NCBI RefSeq assembly: GCF_009906795.1
Contig: NZ_JAAALN010000003.1
Span: 1 to 64,000 of the forward strand
Direction of reading: 5' to 3'
Origin: Kineococcus siccus
Lineage (GTDB): Bacteria > Actinomycetota > Actinomycetes > Actinomycetales > Kineococcaceae
Length of the DNA stretch: 64,000 nucleotides
Below are positions 3,191 through 63,990 of the stretch, in pieces. The stretch's first letter is position 1. Each line of letters starts with the position of its first letter. The notes under the pieces are model-generated. The model was given only the letters and a program-made list of their open reading frames with translations, made no database searches and was not told the origin of the DNA. Made by a program: the position numbers and the translations under genes.

Positions 3191-4186
3191 ATGAGGATTC
3201 GCTCGCGCAAGGCCGCCGTCATCGCCCTCGCCGCCACCGCGGCGCTCACCCTGGGCAGCTGCAGCAGCAGCGGCGGCCGGGAGGACACCGACACCGGAGG
3301 GGCGGCGGCCGGGGTCGCGGACACGCCCCGCATCAAGATCGCCATGGTGACCCACGCGGCGCCGGGCGACACGTTCTGGGACATCGTCCGCTCCGGCGCG
3401 GAGGCGGCCGCGAAGAAGGACAACGTCGACCTGAACTACCAGGGCGCACCCGAGGCGGCGGACCAGGCCAACCTCGTGCAGAGCGCCATCGACGCCAAGG
3501 CCGACGGGATCGCCGTCACGATGGCCAAGCCGGACGCCATGGCCCCGACCGTCAAGGCCGCGGTCGACGCCGGCATCCCCGTCACCGTCCTCAACGGCGG
3601 CATCGACGCGTGGCAGGCCACCGGCGCGATCGGCTACTTCGGCTCCAACGAAACCGTCGCGGGCGAGGCCGTCGGCACGCGGCTCAGCACCGAGGGCGCG
3701 AAGAAGGTCCTCTGCGTGATCCAGGAGCAGGGCAACGTCAGCCTCGACGCCCGCTGCGCCGGGGTCAAGAACACGTTCACGGGCACGACCGAGAACATCT
3801 TCGTCACCGGCACCGACATGCCGTCGGTCCAGCAGTCGATCACCTCCAAGCTCCAGCAGGACCCGGCCATCGACCGGGTGGTCGCCCTGGGCGCGCCGTA
3901 CGCCCTCACGGCCGTCAAGGCCATCGCCGACGCGGGCAGCCAGGCGAAGGTGGGAACGTTCGACACCAACGAGGAGCTCGTCAAGGCCATCCAGGGCGGC
4001 ACCGTGGAGTGGGCCGTCGACCAGCAGCCCTACCTGCAGGGCTACCTCGCGGTCGACGCGCTGTGGCTGTACAAGACCAACGGCAACTCGATCGGCGGGG
4101 GCCAGGCCACGCTGACCGGGCCCGCGTTCATCGACTCCACCAACGTCGACCGCGTCGCCGACTTCGCCGCCAAGGGAACCCGGTGA
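3191..4186 (+). CDS. Sugar ABC transporter substrate-binding lipoprotein
   Basis: This is the extracellular solute-binding component of a ribose/inositol-type importer. The 331-residue protein has a basic n-region, a hydrophobic core and a lipobox ending LGSC with the lipidated Cys at residue 24. A Ser/Gly-rich linker and a type-1 periplasmic-binding fold (Peripla_BP_4) follow. An AGGAAGGA ribosome site supports the start at 3191; the reading frame stays open far upstream but without coding sense. It is followed by a permease and an ATPase and sits inside the iol operon, so myo-inositol is the likely ligand. That is inference from context. Confidence 0.9.
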   Translation: MRIRSRKAAVIALAATAALTLGSCSSSGGREDTDTGGAAAGVADTPRIKIAMVTHAAPGDTFWDIVRSGAEAAAKKDNVDLNYQGAPEAADQANLVQSAIDAKADGIAVTMAKPDAMAPTVKAAVDAGIPVTVLNGGIDAWQATGAIGYFGSNETVAGEAVGTRLSTEGAKKVLCVIQEQGNVSLDARCAGVKNTFTGTTENIFVTGTDMPSVQQSITSKLQQDPAIDRVVALGAPYALTAVKAIADAGSQAKVGTFDTNEELVKAIQGGTVEWAVDQQPYLQGYLAVDALWLYKTNGNSIGGGQATLTGPAFIDSTNVDRVADFAAKGTR

Positions 4187-4193
4187 GGCTCGC

Positions 4194-5251
4194 GTGAGCA
4201 CCTCGGTGAGCAGCCCCAGCGCCTCCGCGGCGCTGCAGGGCAAGGACGACCGCGTCAAGACGCGCTCGGTGACCTCGCGGCTGCTGTCGCGTCCCGAGAT
4301 CGGCTCCCTCATCGGTGCGGTCGCGGTCTTCGTGCTCTTCTGCGTCGTCGCCCCGACGTTCCGCACGGCCCCCTCGCTGGCCACCGTCGCCTACTCGGCG
4401 TCCACGATCGGCATCATGGCCGTCGCGGTCGCCCTGCTCATGATCGGCGGGGAGTTCGACCTGTCGGCGGGCGTCGTCGTCACCACGTCGGCGCTGGCGG
4501 CGTCGACGTTCGCCTTCCAGCTGCGGCTGAACCTGTGGGTCGGCATCGTCGTGGCCCTCCTGCTCGCGCTGGCCGTCGGGGCGTTCAACGGCTGGCTCCT
4601 GATGCGCACGGGGCTGCCCAGCTTCCTCATCACGCTGGGCACGTTCTTCATGCTGCAGGGCCTGAACCTCGGGGTGACGAAGCTGCTGACGGGCGGCGTC
4701 TCGTCGGACTCGGTGGCGGACATGGACGGCTTCTCCGCCGCCCAGGCGGTGTTCGCCTCGACCGTCCAGGTCGGCGGGGTCGGCGTCAAGATCACCGTGT
4801 TCTGGTGGATCCTCTTCGTCGCCATCGCCACCTGGACGCTGCTGCGCACGCGAGTCGGGAACTGGATCTTCGCGGCCGGCGGGGACGCCGCGGCGGCCCG
4901 TGCGGTCGGCGTCCCCGTGCGGCGCACGAAGATCGGCCTGTTCATGGCGGTCGGGTTCTGCGGCTGGTTCGTGGGGATGCACCAGCTGTTCAGCTTCGAC
5001 TCGATCCAGTCCGGCGGCGGCGTCGGGCAGGAGTTCATCTACATCATCGCCGCGGTCGTCGGCGGCTGCCTGCTGACCGGCGGGTACGGCTCCGCGATCG
5101 GGTCGGCCATCGGTGCGCTGATCTTCGGCATGACGAGCCTCGGCATCGTGTACGCGGGCTGGGACGCCAACTGGTTCAAGCTGTTCCTCGGCGTCATGCT
5201 CCTGCTCGCGACGATCGTGAACCTCGTCGTGAAGAACCAGGCGTCCAAGCG

Positions 5252-39951: not shown

Positions 39952-41433
39952 GTGACGGACCGCCGGCTGGGCGACGACGACCTGGCCCGCCTGGTGGGGG
40001 CGCTGCGCTACTGCGTCCTCGTCCACGACGCGCACACGAAGGACATCCTCTGGGCCAACGACGCCGCGTGCGATCTCCTCGGCTTCACCGTGGACGAGCT
40101 CCGGCCGCTGAAGGCCAACCACATGAGCTCCAACGCCAGGGAGTACCGCCGCGAGCTCGGCGTGGCGTGGCTGCAGCACGCCGTCGAGCGCGGCACGAGC
40201 TCGATCGAGTGGTGCTACCGCGCGAAGTCGGGCGTCGAGGTCCTCACCGAGGCCGTCGCCGTCCGGGTGGACCTGGCCGGCGGGCCCGTGGTCATGGTGC
40301 AGTTCCGGGACATCGCGGCGGAGAAGGCGGTGCAGGCCGACCTGACGCGCACGTCGTCACGCCTGGAGGTGTTCCTGCGCCACCTCGGCGAGGGGATCGT
40401 CGTCGTCGACGCCGACGCCACCGTGCTGTTCAGCAGCCAGTCCGCGACCCGGTTGCTGGGCGAGGAGGACCTCGTCGGTCGCCGGTTCACCGACTCCTGC
40501 GACGGACCGTCGGGTGAGCGGCTCCTGGACGCGCTGTCGCAGACCACGCCGGGCCAGCCGCTGCGTGCGGCGCGCTACCGCTGGCGGCGCGGTGACGGTC
40601 GATGGCGGTGGCTCGCCGGCACCTGTCAGTACATCGACCTCGAGGAGGACCTCCGCGGACACCTGCTGCTGCTGCACGACATCACCGACCGCGTCGAGAC
40701 CGAGGACCGGCACTGGCGCGACACCCAGTACCTGCAGCACCTGGCCCGGTACACCGCGATGGGTGACATGGCCATGGCGATCGCCCACGAGGTGAGCCAG
40801 CCGATCACCGCGGCGGGCAACTTCGTGAGCGGGGTCCGCAGCCGGCTCCAGGACGTCGACGGCGGCACCGCCGACGTCGTCTTCGGCCTCGAGCACGCCG
40901 CACGGCAGATCGACCGGGCCAGCCGGATCCTCACGGCGCTGCGGCAGTACGTCGTCCGTCTCGAGCAGGCCGAGCGCGTCAACGACCTCAACGACATCGT
41001 GGCCGACGTCGAGTACTTCGTCAGCCTGCGAGCAGCCCAGCAGTCGGTCCACGTGGGCTGGGACCTCGCCGCCGACGCCCTGCCGGTGCTGTGCGAGAGC
41101 GTGCTGATCGGCCAGGTCATCACGAACCTCGCGTTCAACGCCATCGAGGAGCTGGCGCGGTGGGACGACCGCGAGCGGCGCCTCGACGTCTCGACCCGCC
41201 GCCGCGACGGTGTGGTGCAGGTGGTCGTCGCCGACAACGGCGGGGGCATCGCGCACCTCGACCCGGCCGGCCTGTTCGACGGCGCGTTCACGTCCAAGGA
41301 GAACGGTCACGGCATCGGTCTCGCGCTCACCCACCGGATCGTCACCCGGCACGGCGGCCGCATCGACGCGACGTCCAACGTGCCGCAGGGCACCGTGTTC
41401 GTCGTGGAGCTGCCCGCGGTCACCGGGGGGTGA
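39952..41433 (+). CDS. PAS-domain sensor histidine kinase
   Basis: A 493-residue cytosolic kinase without membrane spans. Two PAS domains (about residues 10-125 and 135-255) precede the H-box AIAHEVSQPITAAGNF with H279 and an ATPase domain with NAIEELARWDD (N-box), DNGGGIAHL (G1) and GHGIGLALTHRIV (G2). The H-box type is that of FixL/TodS/StyS kinases, which sense soluble ligands such as aromatics or O2 through PAS domains. Its 3' end overlaps the convergent AraC gene by 14 nt. Confidence 0.88.
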   Translation: MTDRRLGDDDLARLVGALRYCVLVHDAHTKDILWANDAACDLLGFTVDELRPLKANHMSSNAREYRRELGVAWLQHAVERGTSSIEWCYRAKSGVEVLTEAVAVRVDLAGGPVVMVQFRDIAAEKAVQADLTRTSSRLEVFLRHLGEGIVVVDADATVLFSSQSATRLLGEEDLVGRRFTDSCDGPSGERLLDALSQTTPGQPLRAARYRWRRGDGRWRWLAGTCQYIDLEEDLRGHLLLLHDITDRVETEDRHWRDTQYLQHLARYTAMGDMAMAIAHEVSQPITAAGNFVSGVRSRLQDVDGGTADVVFGLEHAARQIDRASRILTALRQYVVRLEQAERVNDLNDIVADVEYFVSLRAAQQSVHVGWDLAADALPVLCESVLIGQVITNLAFNAIEELARWDDRERRLDVSTRRRDGVVQVVVADNGGGIAHLDPAGLFDGAFTSKENGHGIGLALTHRIVTRHGGRIDATSNVPQGTVFVVELPAVTGG

Positions 41434-42391
41434 CGGGCGCGGCACCGCGGCCCGGGCCCGTGAGGCGGTACTCGCTGGGGGTGGTGCCGAAGGAGCGGTG
41501 GAACAGCCGCGTGAAGTGGGTCGGGTCGTTGAAGCCCCAGCGCCGCGCCACGGTGGCGATGCTCACCCCGCTCATCCGGCCGTCGGCCAGGTCCCGGCGG
41601 CAGGCCTCCAGGCGCCGCTCGCGGACCCAGGCCGAGACGCTCGTCCCCTCCGCGGCGAACAGGCCCTGGAGCTTCCGCGGTGACATGTAGTGGGCGGCGG
41701 CGATTCGGCCGGGGGAGAGGTCGGCGTCGCCCAGGTGCTGCTCCAGCCACCGCCGGACCTCAGCGGTGGGCGGTGCCCCCCGGCGGTCGTCCCCCGTCGC
41801 CTCGAGCAGGCAGGTCGCGATCAGGTCCAGCACCATCTGGTGCGTCCGCGACCCCACGGTCCCCCGCAGGTGCGCCGGCTCCTCCGCGACCCGGCGGAGG
41901 AACGGGACCGCGAGGCGACCGGAACCCACCTCGGACGTCAGGCGCGTCCCCGCGATCCGGGAGACCTGCGTCCCGGTCACGCCGAGCGCGGCGAGGGGGA
42001 ACATCACGACGATGCTCCGGAAGCCGGCCCCGTTGTGCAGCTCGTACGGCTCGTCGACGTCGTAGACGCTGAACTGGCCGGCCTCGAGGACGGTCTCCTC
42101 GCCGGCCCGGCGCAGGACGCTGCGCCCCTCCACCTGCAGGGAGAGCTTGTGCAGCTGCGCCGCCGGGTCCCGCACGGCGTGGCGGCGGTGCACGACGTGC
42201 GAGGTGTCGGCGGTCAGGTCGCTCACGACGATGCCCCGGGCGCGCTGCACCCGGGCCCAGGCGTGGAAGGCGGAACCGGGGCCCGACACGTCGACGGGGA
42301 CGAAGGCGTCCGAGGCCAGCCGCGACCACTGGTCGAGCGAGTCGACCCGCCCCTCGGACGTGCTCGCGTGCCCGACTCCCGTCGTCGTCAT
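41420..42391 (-). CDS. AraC-family regulator (NphR/AlkR-like)
   Basis: A 323-residue regulator with an AraC_binding_2 sensor half (HKLSLQVEGRSVLRRAGEETVLEAGQFSVYDVDEPYEL, about residues 80-120) and a C-terminal HTH_18 domain (SVSAWVRERRLEACRRDL then ATVARRWGFNDPTHFTRLFHRSFGTTPSEYR). Relatives activate catabolic operons for phenols, amides and alkanes. It is divergent from the GMC oxidoreductase gene with 178 nt between. It could control that gene, the iac-cat genes, or both. Confidence 0.88.
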   Translation of the reverse strand: MTTTGVGHASTSEGRVDSLDQWSRLASDAFVPVDVSGPGSAFHAWARVQRARGIVVSDLTADTSHVVHRRHAVRDPAAQLHKLSLQVEGRSVLRRAGEETVLEAGQFSVYDVDEPYELHNGAGFRSIVVMFPLAALGVTGTQVSRIAGTRLTSEVGSGRLAVPFLRRVAEEPAHLRGTVGSRTHQMVLDLIATCLLEATGDDRRGAPPTAEVRRWLEQHLGDADLSPGRIAAAHYMSPRKLQGLFAAEGTSVSAWVRERRLEACRRDLADGRMSGVSIATVARRWGFNDPTHFTRLFHRSFGTTPSEYRLTGPGRGAAPVTPR

Positions 42392-44113: not shown

Positions 44114-45361
44114 TCACCGGCCGACGGTCTCCTCCAGCCAGGTGAGCAGCGCCCGGCCGATGCCGTGGGGGTCGTCCTCCGAGGGCCAGTGGACGCCCCG
44201 CACGGCCACCTCCTGCTGGTTCCGCCAGGTCCGCAGGAGGTCGAGCCGGCGGCCGGCCGTCAGCGCACCCGGTTCGGCGCGCAGCAGCAGCTTGGGGACG
44301 TCGCTGTCGGCCATCCACCGGCTGTGCGCCTGCACGAGGGCGGCCGTCTCGGGCCTGCGCCCTCCCAGCGGGACCTCCCGCGCCCAGTCCAGCGGCGGAC
44401 GGCGGTCCTCGCCCGGCCGGCGGTACGGCGCCCGGTAGACGTCCAGCTCCGTCTCGGACAGGCTGCGCAGCACGCCCATCCGGATGTTCTCCACGAACTG
44501 GTTGTCGCCGAGCTGGAACGCCTCACCCTCGTCCGAGTGCATGGTCCGGAACATCGGCCGGATCATCGGCGGCGTCCAGTCGTCCCACTCGAACGGGGGT
44601 GTCACCGCCTCGGTGTGGGCCACGCCCGCCACGGCCCCGGGGTGGTCCTTGGCCCACTCGAAGGCGAGGTTGGCCCCCCAGTCGTGTCCGACGAGGACGA
44701 CGTCGCGCGTGACGCCGAGCGCGTCCAGCAACCGGCTCAGGTAGTCGTACTGCGTGCGGAACGAGTAGGCGCCGTCGAAGGAGTGCGGCAGCTTGTCGGA
44801 CTCGCCGCTGCCGAGGAGGTCCACGGCGATCGCCCGCCCGGCCTGCGCGGCGTAGGGCAGCACGTTGCGCCAGAGGTAGGCCTGACCGACGTCGCCGTGC
44901 AGGAAGACGATCGGGCGGCCCTCGCCGAGGGTGACCGTGCTCATGCCGAGACCGTCGACCGTGGTCGTGCGACGCTCACCGGTCATGACCGGCGAGATGT
45001 CCTCGGGGGAGGGGCGCGGCGGGGCCAGGGCGATGTTGTCCCCCAGGACCGCGGGCGGGCTCATGGCGGTTCCGCCGGCGTTGACGTGCTCGAAGTAGTC
45101 GTACCAGCCGGACGCCGCGATCCCCGCCTGCAACCGCTCGAACAGCTCACGGTTCGGCAGGCGGTAGACCCCGAAGAAGTCGAAGTCCGCCCGCAGGTCG
45201 ACGCTCGGGTCGTTGGGCCCCCACGCGATGACCTCGACCCCCGCGGCCGTCATGCTCGCGACCATGGGCGCGAGCCGCTCCGCGTACTCCTGCCGGGCGT
45301 CGACACCGGCGTCGCGCCAGGCGTCCTTGTACTTCCAGAGCTCGATGAAGATGTGCTGCAC
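44114..45361 (-). CDS. DUF6616-like domain fused to a haloalkane-dehalogenase-like hydrolase
   Basis: A 415-residue fusion. Residues 1-100 resemble the small DUF6616-type alpha/beta-barrel domain (HIFIELWKYKDAW, GVEVIAWGPNDPS, FFGVYRLPNRELFERL). From about residue 125 it is an alpha/beta hydrolase: HGDVGQAYLWRNVLPY (oxyanion region), nucleophile D227 in GHDWGANL, acid Glu in AEPGAL near 348 and base His in GVHWPSED. The order matches class II haloalkane dehalogenases, but the halide-stabilising Asn after HG is Asp, so dehalogenase activity is uncertain. GAGGACG precedes the GTG at 45361. Confidence 0.78.
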   Translation of the reverse strand: MQHIFIELWKYKDAWRDAGVDARQEYAERLAPMVASMTAAGVEVIAWGPNDPSVDLRADFDFFGVYRLPNRELFERLQAGIAASGWYDYFEHVNAGGTAMSPPAVLGDNIALAPPRPSPEDISPVMTGERRTTTVDGLGMSTVTLGEGRPIVFLHGDVGQAYLWRNVLPYAAQAGRAIAVDLLGSGESDKLPHSFDGAYSFRTQYDYLSRLLDALGVTRDVVLVGHDWGANLAFEWAKDHPGAVAGVAHTEAVTPPFEWDDWTPPMIRPMFRTMHSDEGEAFQLGDNQFVENIRMGVLRSLSETELDVYRAPYRRPGEDRRPPLDWAREVPLGGRRPETAALVQAHSRWMADSDVPKLLLRAEPGALTAGRRLDLLRTWRNQQEVAVRGVHWPSEDDPHGIGRALLTWLEETVGR

Positions 45362-45607: not shown

Positions 45608-46621
45608 GTGGAACCTCCCGCGGCGAGCCCGCACGTGGTGGCCGTCGTCCTCTTCCAGGGCGTCGACGCCGTCGACGTGACCGGTCCCGCGGAGGTGTTC
45701 AGCACCGCCAACTGGCTGCTGCGGCAGCGTGGCCGGGAGCCGCGGTACGAGGTGCACCACCTCGCCGATCGAGCCGGGCCCGTCCGGACCGTCTCCGGGG
45801 TCCGCCTGTACGCCGACGAGACCTTCGACGGCTGGCGCCTCACCCCCGACACGCTCCTGGTCCCCGGGGGGATCCAGCTCACGGACGACGGCCCCGTGCC
45901 GGTGATCGACGCCACCGCCGTCGAGTGGATCCGCGAGGCGGGACGCGAGGCGCGCCGCATCGTCTCCATCTGCGCGGGAACGCACCTGACCGCGGCGGCG
46001 GGTCTGCTGCGCGGGCACCGCGCCACGACGCACTGGTCGACGGTCGACCGCCTGGCGGCGGAACAGCCGCTCGTCCAGGTGGAACGCGACCCGATCTTCG
46101 TCCGGTCGGGTCACGTGTGGACGAGTGCCGGCATGACCGCCTCGCTCGACCTGGCCCTCGCCCTCGTCGCCGAGGACCACGGGGCCGAGCTGTCCCTCGA
46201 GGTGGCGCGCATCATGGTGATGTACCTGCAGCGACCGGGTGGTCAGAGCCAGCTCAGCGTCCCCCTCGCGCGCAGCGGTGGCGGCCGGCGCGACCTGCGT
46301 GACCTGCGGAGCTGGATGGGGGAGAACCTCGACGGTGACCTGTCGGTGCCGGCCCTGGCGTCGCGGATGTCCTTGAGCGAGCGGCACTTCGCCCGGTTGT
46401 TCCTCGCCGACACGGGGATCACGCCGGCCGTGTTCGTGGAGCAGCTGCGGATCGAGGGAGCCCGGCGCATGGTCGAGCAGACGGACCTCCTGCCCCGCCA
46501 GATCGCGAGGTTCTGCGGCCTGGGGTCGGTCGAGACCCTGCACCGGGTCTTCCGCACCCACCTGGGCACGACGCCGGGGGAGTACCGACGGCGGTTCCGC
46601 CCCGCGCAGCAACGCCTCTGA
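45608..46621 (+). CDS. GlxA-type AraC regulator with DJ-1/PfpI domain
   Basis: A 337-residue regulator. The N-terminal DJ-1/PfpI (amidase-like) domain spans about residues 8-190, including LVPGGIQL and the nucleophile-elbow-type Cys in SICAGTHLTAAAG near 122 and RATTHW. A C-terminal AraC domain (ASRMSLSERHFARLFLADTG then FCGLGSVETLHRVFRTHLGTTPGEYR) follows. The N-domain is related to isonitrile hydratase. Such proteins usually regulate adjacent catabolic genes, here possibly the divergent hydrolase or the HD/amidohydrolase pair downstream. Confidence 0.87.
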   Translation: MEPPAASPHVVAVVLFQGVDAVDVTGPAEVFSTANWLLRQRGREPRYEVHHLADRAGPVRTVSGVRLYADETFDGWRLTPDTLLVPGGIQLTDDGPVPVIDATAVEWIREAGREARRIVSICAGTHLTAAAGLLRGHRATTHWSTVDRLAAEQPLVQVERDPIFVRSGHVWTSAGMTASLDLALALVAEDHGAELSLEVARIMVMYLQRPGGQSQLSVPLARSGGGRRDLRDLRSWMGENLDGDLSVPALASRMSLSERHFARLFLADTGITPAVFVEQLRIEGARRMVEQTDLLPRQIARFCGLGSVETLHRVFRTHLGTTPGEYRRRFRPAQQRL

Positions 46622-46671: not shown

Positions 46672-46710
46672 GTGACCCACGTCACCGCGATGGTTCCTTG
46701 CGGGGAACCA
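46672..46710 (+). promoter_or_regulatory. Composite element upstream of the HD-domain gene (copy 1)
   Basis: GTGA-N6-TCAC (46672-46685) is followed after 8 nt by TTCCTTGCGGGGAACCA, in which TGGTTCC-N6-GGAACCA (46691-46710) is a perfect dyad. A sequence with the same spacing lies at 57947-57985 before another gene. The first part resembles a CRP/GlxR site. GGAACC could also serve as an ECF-type -35. Confidence 0.45.
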
Positions 46711-46824
46711 CGGACGTGGTGGGACGGTGGCGCGAAACCGCCGCACACCGGGAGTCACGATGACGACGAGCACCTGCCCACCGATGAGCCCGATCGCCGC
46801 CACCGGCCGCGTGTCGGTGTGACC

Positions 46825-47466
46825 GTGACGGACGTGAGCGAGTTCCCCGAGACGCCCCTGGCGCGCACGGCCCACGAGTTCCTCGTGGGGGGCTCGGCGC
46901 AGACGCTGGTCAACCACAGCCTGCGCAGCTACCTGTTCGCGCGCCGCGTGGCCGACCTCCGCGGCCTGCGCCCGGACGTCGACTTCGACGACGAGGTGGT
47001 CTTCGTCAGCTGTGCGCTGCACGACGTCGGCCTGACCGAGGCCGGGAACGGTGATCAGCGGTTCGAGGTCGACGGAGCGGACCTCGCCGTGCGGGTGCTG
47101 CGCGACGCCGGCATGGCCGCCGACCGCACCTCGCTGGTGTGGGACGCGATCGCCCTGCACACGTCGGCCGGCATCGCGGACCGCAAGGCGCCGGAGATCG
47201 CCCTGTCGTTCTACGGCATCGCCCTGGACGTCTTCGGCCTCGGCGCCGAGCAGTTCCCCGGCGAGGTCCTCGCGGGTGTCCACGCGGGTCGCCCGCGCCT
47301 GCAGCTGGCGGACGAGCTGGCCCGGATGGTGGTCGACCAGACCGTGGACAAGCCGGCGAAGGCCCCGCCCCTGAGCTTCCCCTCCCTCCTCGTCGGCGAG
47401 GTGAGGGGCGCCGGGAGCGTGCCGGACTTCCGGGGGCTCGTCGCCGCCGGCCCGTGGGGTTCCTGA
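46825..47466 (+). CDS. HD-domain protein, cyanamide-hydratase-like
   Basis: A 213-residue HD-superfamily hydrolase. NHSLRSYLFARRVA near residue 31, LHDVGLTEAG near 68 (the HD pair), FEVDGADLAVRVLRDAG near 83 and AIALHTSAGIADRK near 108 match the family that includes fungal cyanamide hydratase, which adds water to cyanamide to give urea. The bacterial members are mostly uncharacterised. GTG 46825 (alternative 46819) is preferred over upstream starts because the preceding codons are untypical. The amidohydrolase gene follows. Confidence 0.78.
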   Translation: MTDVSEFPETPLARTAHEFLVGGSAQTLVNHSLRSYLFARRVADLRGLRPDVDFDDEVVFVSCALHDVGLTEAGNGDQRFEVDGADLAVRVLRDAGMAADRTSLVWDAIALHTSAGIADRKAPEIALSFYGIALDVFGLGAEQFPGEVLAGVHAGRPRLQLADELARMVVDQTVDKPAKAPPLSFPSLLVGEVRGAGSVPDFRGLVAAGPWGS

Positions 47467-63330: not shown

Positions 63331-63990
63331 CAGGCGGAGTTTGCGCGGGTCGGTGAGGACCACCGGTGCGTCGCGCTCGACCTCGTGGGCACGGGTGGGT
63401 CGGACCAGCTGCCCGGCACCGGTGACGACCGGTACCGCTTCGTCGAGCACCGGCGGTTCCTCGACGCGGCGCTGACCGCCCTCGATCTCGACGGGCCCTG
63501 CGTGTTCGTGGGCCACGACTGGCGTGGGGTCCTGGCCGTGGACCGTGCGCGCCGCCGCCCGGACACCGCGCGGGGTGTCGCCTACCTCGAAGCGGGTGTC
63601 GTGCCCGTCTCGTGGCACGACGGCACGGGCCCGGACCGGGAGTTGTCCGGCGCCCTGCGTTCGCCGGCGGGTGAGCAGTTGGCCCTACGCCGGCCCGGGT
63701 GAGGAGCGAGGGCGATGCTCACCTGGGCGCGGGAGATCCCCGTCGACGGGGAACCCGCCGACGTGCACGAGGCCGTCGCCGCCGGTGCGGCGTGGATGTC
63801 CACCAGCACGGTGCCGAAACTCCTGGTGCGCGGAGATCCCGGCGCCGTGATCACCGGACGCGTGCTGGAGAAGTGCCGACGCTGGCCGCACCAGTCCGAG
63901 GTCACCGTCGCCGGGACGCACTTCCTCCCGCACGACTCCTCACCCCAGATCGCGGCCGCGTTGCGGACCTGGCTCGCCACCCTGACGTAG
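63331..63990 (+). pseudogene. Decayed haloalkane dehalogenase gene
   Basis: Two pieces in different frames read as a class II haloalkane dehalogenase. Frame 1 (63331-63702) gives HRCVALDLVGTGGSDQLPG, RYRFVEHRRFLDA, the nucleophile region GHDWRGVLAV and ARGVAYLEAGVVPVSW. Frame 2 (63715-63990) gives LTWAREIPVDGEPADV, STVPKLLVRGDPGA and VTVAGTHFLPHDS with the base His. The first 50 or so residues (HGNPTS region) and about 30 cap-domain residues between the pieces are missing, and a frame change joins them. A functional product is unlikely. Confidence 0.75.

Follow-up and report, generated by a model that had tools for sequence, protein, structure and literature searches.

The window, a stretch of 64,000 nucleotides from Kineococcus siccus, carries on its minus strand a gene that joins a DUF6616 domain to a haloalkane dehalogenase (HLD)-like hydrolase. 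See Table 1 for the features of this gene and of the neighbouring regulator. No internal stop interrupts the reading frame between GTG 45361 and the stop at 44114, in agreement with the continuous frame that the original prediction had described. Upstream of the GTG the frame remains open a long way, and we took this codon as the start because the homologues and a ribosome site (GAGGA, 6 bases 5' of it) point there. The claim that this is the only good ribosome site, located before the small N-terminal domain, was too strong, as an internal ATG at 45064 is also preceded, at 5 bases, by GGCGGAA. Residues 1–111 match PF20321 (DUF6616) with 124.7 bits against a Pfam gathering cut-off of 27, and residues 127–413 match the NCBIfam haloalkane dehalogenase equivalog NF002938 with 304.3 bits against a cut-off of 241. 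Both matches lie in one frame, which bears out the proposed fusion. The Pfam alpha/beta hydrolase match begins at residue 150, and haloalkane dehalogenases, including LinB, are the best sequence matches among solved structures.

Table 1. Positions in the window of the fusion gene, its domains and predicted active-site codons, and the adjacent regulator gene
Feature	Position	Strand	Evidence or remark
DUF6616–haloalkane-dehalogenase-like fusion gene	44114..45361	-	415 aa, GTG start; open frame, domain matches, homologous starts
DUF6616 domain (PF20321), residues 1-111	45029..45361	-	Pfam match; predicted ferredoxin-like alpha/beta barrel (model pLDDT 76.5, fold matches)
Linker, residues 112-126	44984..45028	-	Gap between Pfam and NCBIfam matched stretches
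HLD-II-like alpha/beta hydrolase domain, residues 127-413	44123..44983	-	NCBIfam and solved-structure sequence matches
Asp157 codon (GAC), at position of HLD-II halide-stabilising Asn	44891..44893	-	Alignment
Asp227, predicted nucleophile	44681..44683	-	Alignment
Trp228, halide-stabilising Trp kept	44678..44680	-	Alignment
Asn231, nucleophile-elbow residue common to the three fusions, 0/70 other rows	44669..44671	-	Residue comparison
Glu251, predicted catalytic acid	44609..44611	-	Alignment
His391, predicted base, followed by clade-specific Trp392	44189..44191	-	Alignment
DJ-1/PfpI + AraC (GlxA-type) regulator	45608..46621	+	Divergent from fusion; 60-66% identical to regulators at the other two fusion loci

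The same architecture was found in two further genomes. A scan of genome contigs identified a full-length relative in Pseudonocardia spinosispora (47% identity over residues 1–409), and a second full-length fusion, 45% identical, came from a search across 62 genomes of the same genus, in the one labelled G820. Both proteins have the DUF6616 and hydrolase domains in a single frame, with PF20321 scores of 119.7 and 114.1 bits. A sequencing frame error, which the original prediction had named as one way to be wrong, is excluded because two other genomes carry the same fusion and because third-position G+C is even across the gene (0.973 and 0.961 in its two halves). A sequencing or assembly artefact is thus already refuted. 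The internal ATG is not conserved, the other fusions having TTG and CTG at its position. We give almost no weight to artefact or to initiation at ATG 45064 that would yield two proteins, the GGCGGAA stretch ahead of that codon being the one point in their favour. It is very likely that the fused hydrolase is produced as a protein and folded.

Counts of the domain and of the fusion were taken from genome samples that overlap and are partial. In the class to which the window belongs, the only one of 394 genomes with DUF6616 above the Pfam cut-off was that of the window itself, one further genome giving a weak match. The domain also passed the cut-off in 8 of 346 genomes of the P. spinosispora family (one further weak match) and 3 of 65 genomes of the Burkholderia genus; with an alignment of six DUF6616 rows as the query, it was found in 2 of 200 genomes of the Burkholderia family. 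Among 12 genomes of the window's family, a full-length match to the fusion occurred solely in the window's own, and among 62 genomes of the P. spinosispora genus it occurred in two. When four candidates were scored per genome, there was one in 397 genomes of the P. spinosispora order (P. spinosispora itself) and one in 396 genomes of the phylum (the window's own). One genome place is labelled both as P. spinosispora's order (G862) and as the window's "same class" (G049); therefore, the fusion hosts share a class, whereas these labels assign them to separate orders.

No relative turned up in viral contigs scanned with the fusion, with its hydrolase half or with DUF6616, and phage records gave three weak matches, to annotated esterase or hydrolase genes. 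No full-length fusion was present in plasmid records, among 40 listed of the 487 that match the window protein and 12 listed of the 196 that match the G820 fusion. None of those 12 covers 80% of the query. Among the listed matches to the window protein, one covers at least 80%, a Nostoc record that aligns from residue 70 on; we rejected it as a fusion, as it is an ordinary HLD gene whose match extends back into the preceding oxidoreductase gene. Plasmid records matching the DUF6616 queries numbered 9 and 10, all short and domain-sized.

Alignment of the hydrolase half identifies the HLD-II triad, with Asp227 as nucleophile, Glu251 as acid and His391 as base, and Trp228 next to the nucleophile, all as originally predicted. 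HLDs are defined by two halide-stabilising residues, an Asn plus a Trp or Tyr (PMC6920932, in the part available). Here, the Trp is present and the Asn is replaced by Asp157. By sequence model and triad, the domain would belong to HLD-II, from which it departs at the Asn. It resembles HLD-II enzymes of the LinB type (NF002938) in its fold as judged by sequence, the Asp-His-Glu triad, the Trp after the nucleophile, and ~44% identity over the domain, but differs in having HGDV for HGNP, Asn231, Trp392, and the N-terminal DUF6616.

We compared 73 hydrolase rows from fetched loci (BLAST E ≤ 1e-20, at least 200 aligned residues, identical stretches dropped). The rows were picked by similarity to the fusion and are a limited sample, with loci from 30 of 99 places in the order search, 22 of 22 in the genus and 22 of 22 in the phylum. 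GNP is found in 69 rows and GDV in three, which are the three fusions, and one row has no letters at the site. The longer motif is HGNP in 69/69 informative homologues without DUF6616 and HGDV in 3/3 fusions, so the predicted Asp in place of the first halide-stabilising Asn is present and marks the whole clade. At E 1e-4, a DUF6616 match is absent from the fetched locus of all other 70 rows, each locus including at least 350 bases before the frame. We called a residue clade-specific if it was in all three fusions, in at most 10% of the others, and contrasted with a majority residue. Nine such residues were found, a signature that depends on the three known fusions, with the following counts in the others: L112 3/33, D157 and V158 0/69, V180 1/69, A230 2/70, N231 0/70, W392 0/67, D397 1/67 and G400 0/67. 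Five of the nine are at most 4 residues from D157, D227 or H391, and another two follow the base at distances of 6 and 9 residues. This clustering points to a changed pocket and argues against a single chance substitution; the active site seems to have been altered jointly at several points, namely A230 and N231 by the nucleophile, W392 by the base, and the HGDV loop.

In a tree of the 73 rows, a branch supported at 100/99 separates the three fused hydrolase domains from all others. The fused hydrolase clade is real and rare, and is probably of single origin. The topology fits acquisition by transfer rather than from a resident HLD, as the HLDs encoded by the window's genome and its genus are placed elsewhere in the tree. 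Separately, one HLD homologue (L127:242-1141, minus strand) aligns with Gly where the nucleophile Asp is expected and with Asp at the position of the catalytic Glu, and is possibly an inactive or re-purposed relative. The window also contains, at 63355-63978 on the plus strand, a degraded, incomplete copy of C470, the HLD that this genome encodes without DUF6616, identical to it in 205 of 271 aligned columns. Its N-terminus is replaced, ~30 residues are missing, and it has an in-frame TGA and an Arg in the nucleophile elbow.

Each of the three fusions has a DJ-1/PfpI–AraC regulator within 0.8 kb. In P. spinosispora, the regulator is also divergent from the fusion, and in G820 it lies ~0.8 kb downstream and is convergent. 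The three regulators are 60–66% identical to each other and 35–39% identical to those of Burkholderia and Cupriavidus. In a control of 62 Pseudonocardia genomes, four had a regulator copy of at least 58% by the search table, the next being 47%. Two of the four are the fusion genomes, and the other two have their copy (57–58%) beside an isochorismatase-family gene. The fusion–regulator pairing is therefore conserved, though not exclusive, as relatives of the regulator are also found next to different genes.

We tested six further neighbours of the fusion gene in the window; none is present at both of the remaining fusion loci, and one, an HD-domain gene, is present at one of them. This gene (46672-47466, plus strand) lies directly downstream of the regulator and encodes a cyanamide-hydratase-like protein that scores under the NCBIfam cut-off. 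A gene of this kind is near two of the three fusion loci (32% identity over 173 residues) and not at the third, a recurrence that is probably due to chance. We also considered a shared operon and dropped the idea: at E 1e-5, the sequence fetched around the other two fusions contains nothing matching the GMC oxidoreductase, amidohydrolase, thiolase or kinase that lie beside the fusion gene in the window. A second AraC regulator of the window (41420-42391) matches the other fusion loci only in the helix-turn-helix of their GlxA-type regulator.

A model of the DUF6616 domain (pLDDT 76.5; one model, from a six-row alignment) shows a ferredoxin-like beta-alpha-beta-beta-alpha-beta arrangement, the unit of an alpha/beta barrel. 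Foldseek gave no match at E 0.001 (best E 1.4e-3). On a second look, the best fold matches were coproheme decarboxylase and chlorite dismutase, with Z scores up to 10.8 (against VIA, Z 10.8, rmsd 3.8, 102 residues aligned), followed by small dimeric barrels including hydroxynitrile lyase and polyketide cyclase (Z about 7–9). The model would place DUF6616 in the dimeric alpha/beta barrel superfamily. Nine residues (E7, W15, R23, G41, E43, G85, Y89, F90 and N94) are conserved in 22–23 of 23 DUF6616 sequences and kept in all three fusions. The full-length structure prediction had a pLDDT of 51 and was used for no claim about geometry, either at the Asp157 site or at the contact between DUF6616 and the hydrolase.

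Unfused DUF6616 proteins share the whole domain and its conserved residues with the fusion. The closest relatives seen, at 63% and 67% identity, are from Burkholderia and a Cupriavidus plasmid, where the unfused gene is flanked by a GlxA-type regulator on one side and a DJ-1/PfpI gene on the other. Other proteobacterial members, in contrast, follow MarR genes: among 15 such loci, at least two pairs of which are near copies, MarR is upstream in 13, only a matching fragment is present in one (L047), and one has none (L182). A HEAT-repeat gene lies between MarR and DUF6616 in 10 of the 15 (L012, L014, L077, L078, L079, L134, L137, L138, L183 and L184), some of these groups being on plasmids and adjoining transposases. 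The 12 of the 15 loci that were in the DUF6616 tree form one clade. We did not rely on the NCBI name "DNA alkylation repair protein" of the intervening gene to link DUF6616 to alkylation damage; of two such genes tested, one scored 20.8 against a Pfam cut-off of 21 and the other had no match, and HEAT repeats were the better match. Six Pseudonocardiaceae loci with unfused DUF6616 were read, and these have neither the MarR/HEAT nor the GlxA/PfpI setting, save L045, with a 36% relative of the regulator ~1 kb away. In L182, from a Serratia proteamaculans plasmid, an unannotated two-piece DUF6616 match lies near 4001-4302, between urea carboxylase and nifH.

The two halves of the window fusion appear to have partly different histories, because its DUF6616 domain is closer to the Burkholderia and Cupriavidus domains than to the other fused ones, both by identity (63–67% against only 38–45%) and by tree. 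In the DUF6616 tree, where support is moderate and the domain short, the window domain groups with Burkholderia and Cupriavidus (91/88), and this group is nested among fused and GlxA-linked domains in a larger clade (91/92). Two histories would account for this: descent of the unfused Burkholderia form from a fused ancestor, or exchange of the small domain in the window fusion. The fused type of HLD is absent from the Burkholderia genome and the Cupriavidus plasmid, where hydrolase matches are 28–42% (best E 2.9e-14).

The best explanation as a whole is a regulated, single-chain hydrolase with an Asp nucleophile and an altered leaving-group preference, to which we assign a probability of roughly 0.5. 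Covalent hydrolysis through the Asp nucleophile is a likely part of it, and we lean slightly toward a main natural substrate other than a simple haloalkane. HLDs act in two steps, SN2 attack and then ester hydrolysis (PMC10503415, in the part available). Since the triad is intact, the established mechanism would have Asp227 attack an electrophilic carbon to give an ester intermediate, and His391 and Glu251 activate water so that the ester on Asp227 is hydrolysed. Asp157, probably protonatable beside Trp228, may stabilise or protonate the leaving group in the Asn's stead. Next to Trp228, a charged acid would push a halide away, and a neutral one could supply a proton; simple haloalkanes would accordingly be less favoured than compounds with an oxygen leaving group (an epoxide, a lactone or an activated ester) or an unusual halide substrate. 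The DUF6616 domain may make a dimer and hold or deliver a small ligand, and the regulator would turn the gene on in response to that ligand.

Against this explanation stand the NCBIfam haloalkane dehalogenase cut-off, which the protein passes, and DmxA, an HLD-II enzyme that naturally has Gln for the halide-stabilising Asn and dehalogenates nonetheless (PMC6920932, available part). Both suit a haloalkane dehalogenase of slightly shifted specificity, with triad and Trp in place, a protonated Asp157 that still hydrogen-bonds the halide, and a DUF6616 domain that adds only dimerisation or stability. The Gln-to-Asn form of DmxA is likewise active with shifted specificity, its kcat being 12-fold up on 1,3-dibromopropane and 3- and 2-fold down on two other substrates (PMC6920932). 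DmxA has Gln rather than Asp, and the available part of that paper describes no fused domain for it. Among the 69 informative homologues without DUF6616, none differs at the Asn, and in the fusions the nucleophile elbow and the His loop are altered as well. A slightly shifted dehalogenase is possible but somewhat doubtful. It had been proposed that the Asp should weaken halide binding and make a different reaction possible; the change itself is real and clade-wide, whereas its effect is what we infer, with DmxA as the counterexample. The adjacent regulator, the orthologous fusions and the signature common to the clade go beyond what the original prediction had described.

Another alternative is that the protein carries out successive steps, DUF6616 itself being a small enzyme, or a unit that delivers substrate, as is the case for some other alpha/beta barrels of this fold, and passing its product to the hydrolase. 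Matches to its barrel fold do include enzymes, for instance hydroxynitrile lyase and olivetolic acid cyclase, and the nine conserved residues are retained in the fusions. In two Burkholderia genomes, moreover, an alpha/beta hydrolase gene lies 502 (L046:8782-9633) and 185 (L047:8820-9671) bases downstream of a separate DUF6616, but the similarity of this hydrolase to the HLD half is only ~31%, across 112 residues. We found no DUF6616 member whose function is known, and of the seven Pseudonocardiaceae loci where an unfused DUF6616 scores above the cut-off, six have no HLD match (the seventh, G630, scores as G612 and is outside the six). We consider successive steps unlikely.

OleB enzymes are beta-lactone decarboxylases and, with HLD-III, provide a precedent for a dehalogenase-like enzyme with another reaction. 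XcOleB is named among HLD-III relatives (PMC10503415, available part); unlike the fusion, which has Glu as its acid and Asp for Asn, HLD-III enzymes have Asp as the acid and keep the Asn (PMC6920932, available part). Literature searches, in which subscription journals were thinly covered, found no mention of DUF6616, no haloalkane dehalogenase with N38D or an Asn replacement by that wording, and, by titles and abstracts, no such dehalogenase fusion among the matches listed. LinB mutants at the halide-stabilising Asn position have reportedly been studied. Going further than the altered leaving-group preference, we tentatively propose a new dehalogenase-like branch, which would have recruited a barrel domain, re-tooled its halide pocket with an acid for a non-halide reaction (e.g., on an epoxide or lactone), and spread between bacterial orders as one gene with one sensor-regulator.

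Haloalkane dehalogenases serve as a model for the way in which a single fold changes its reaction, with luciferases and beta-lactone decarboxylases as examples. A natural clade with Asn replaced by Asp, plus neighbouring active-site changes, would allow the role of that residue to be tested cleanly, and the fusion would give a functional handle on DUF6616. Because its active site carries a shared set of changes, this two-part enzyme may act on a substrate or catalyse a reaction not yet described for the dehalogenase family.
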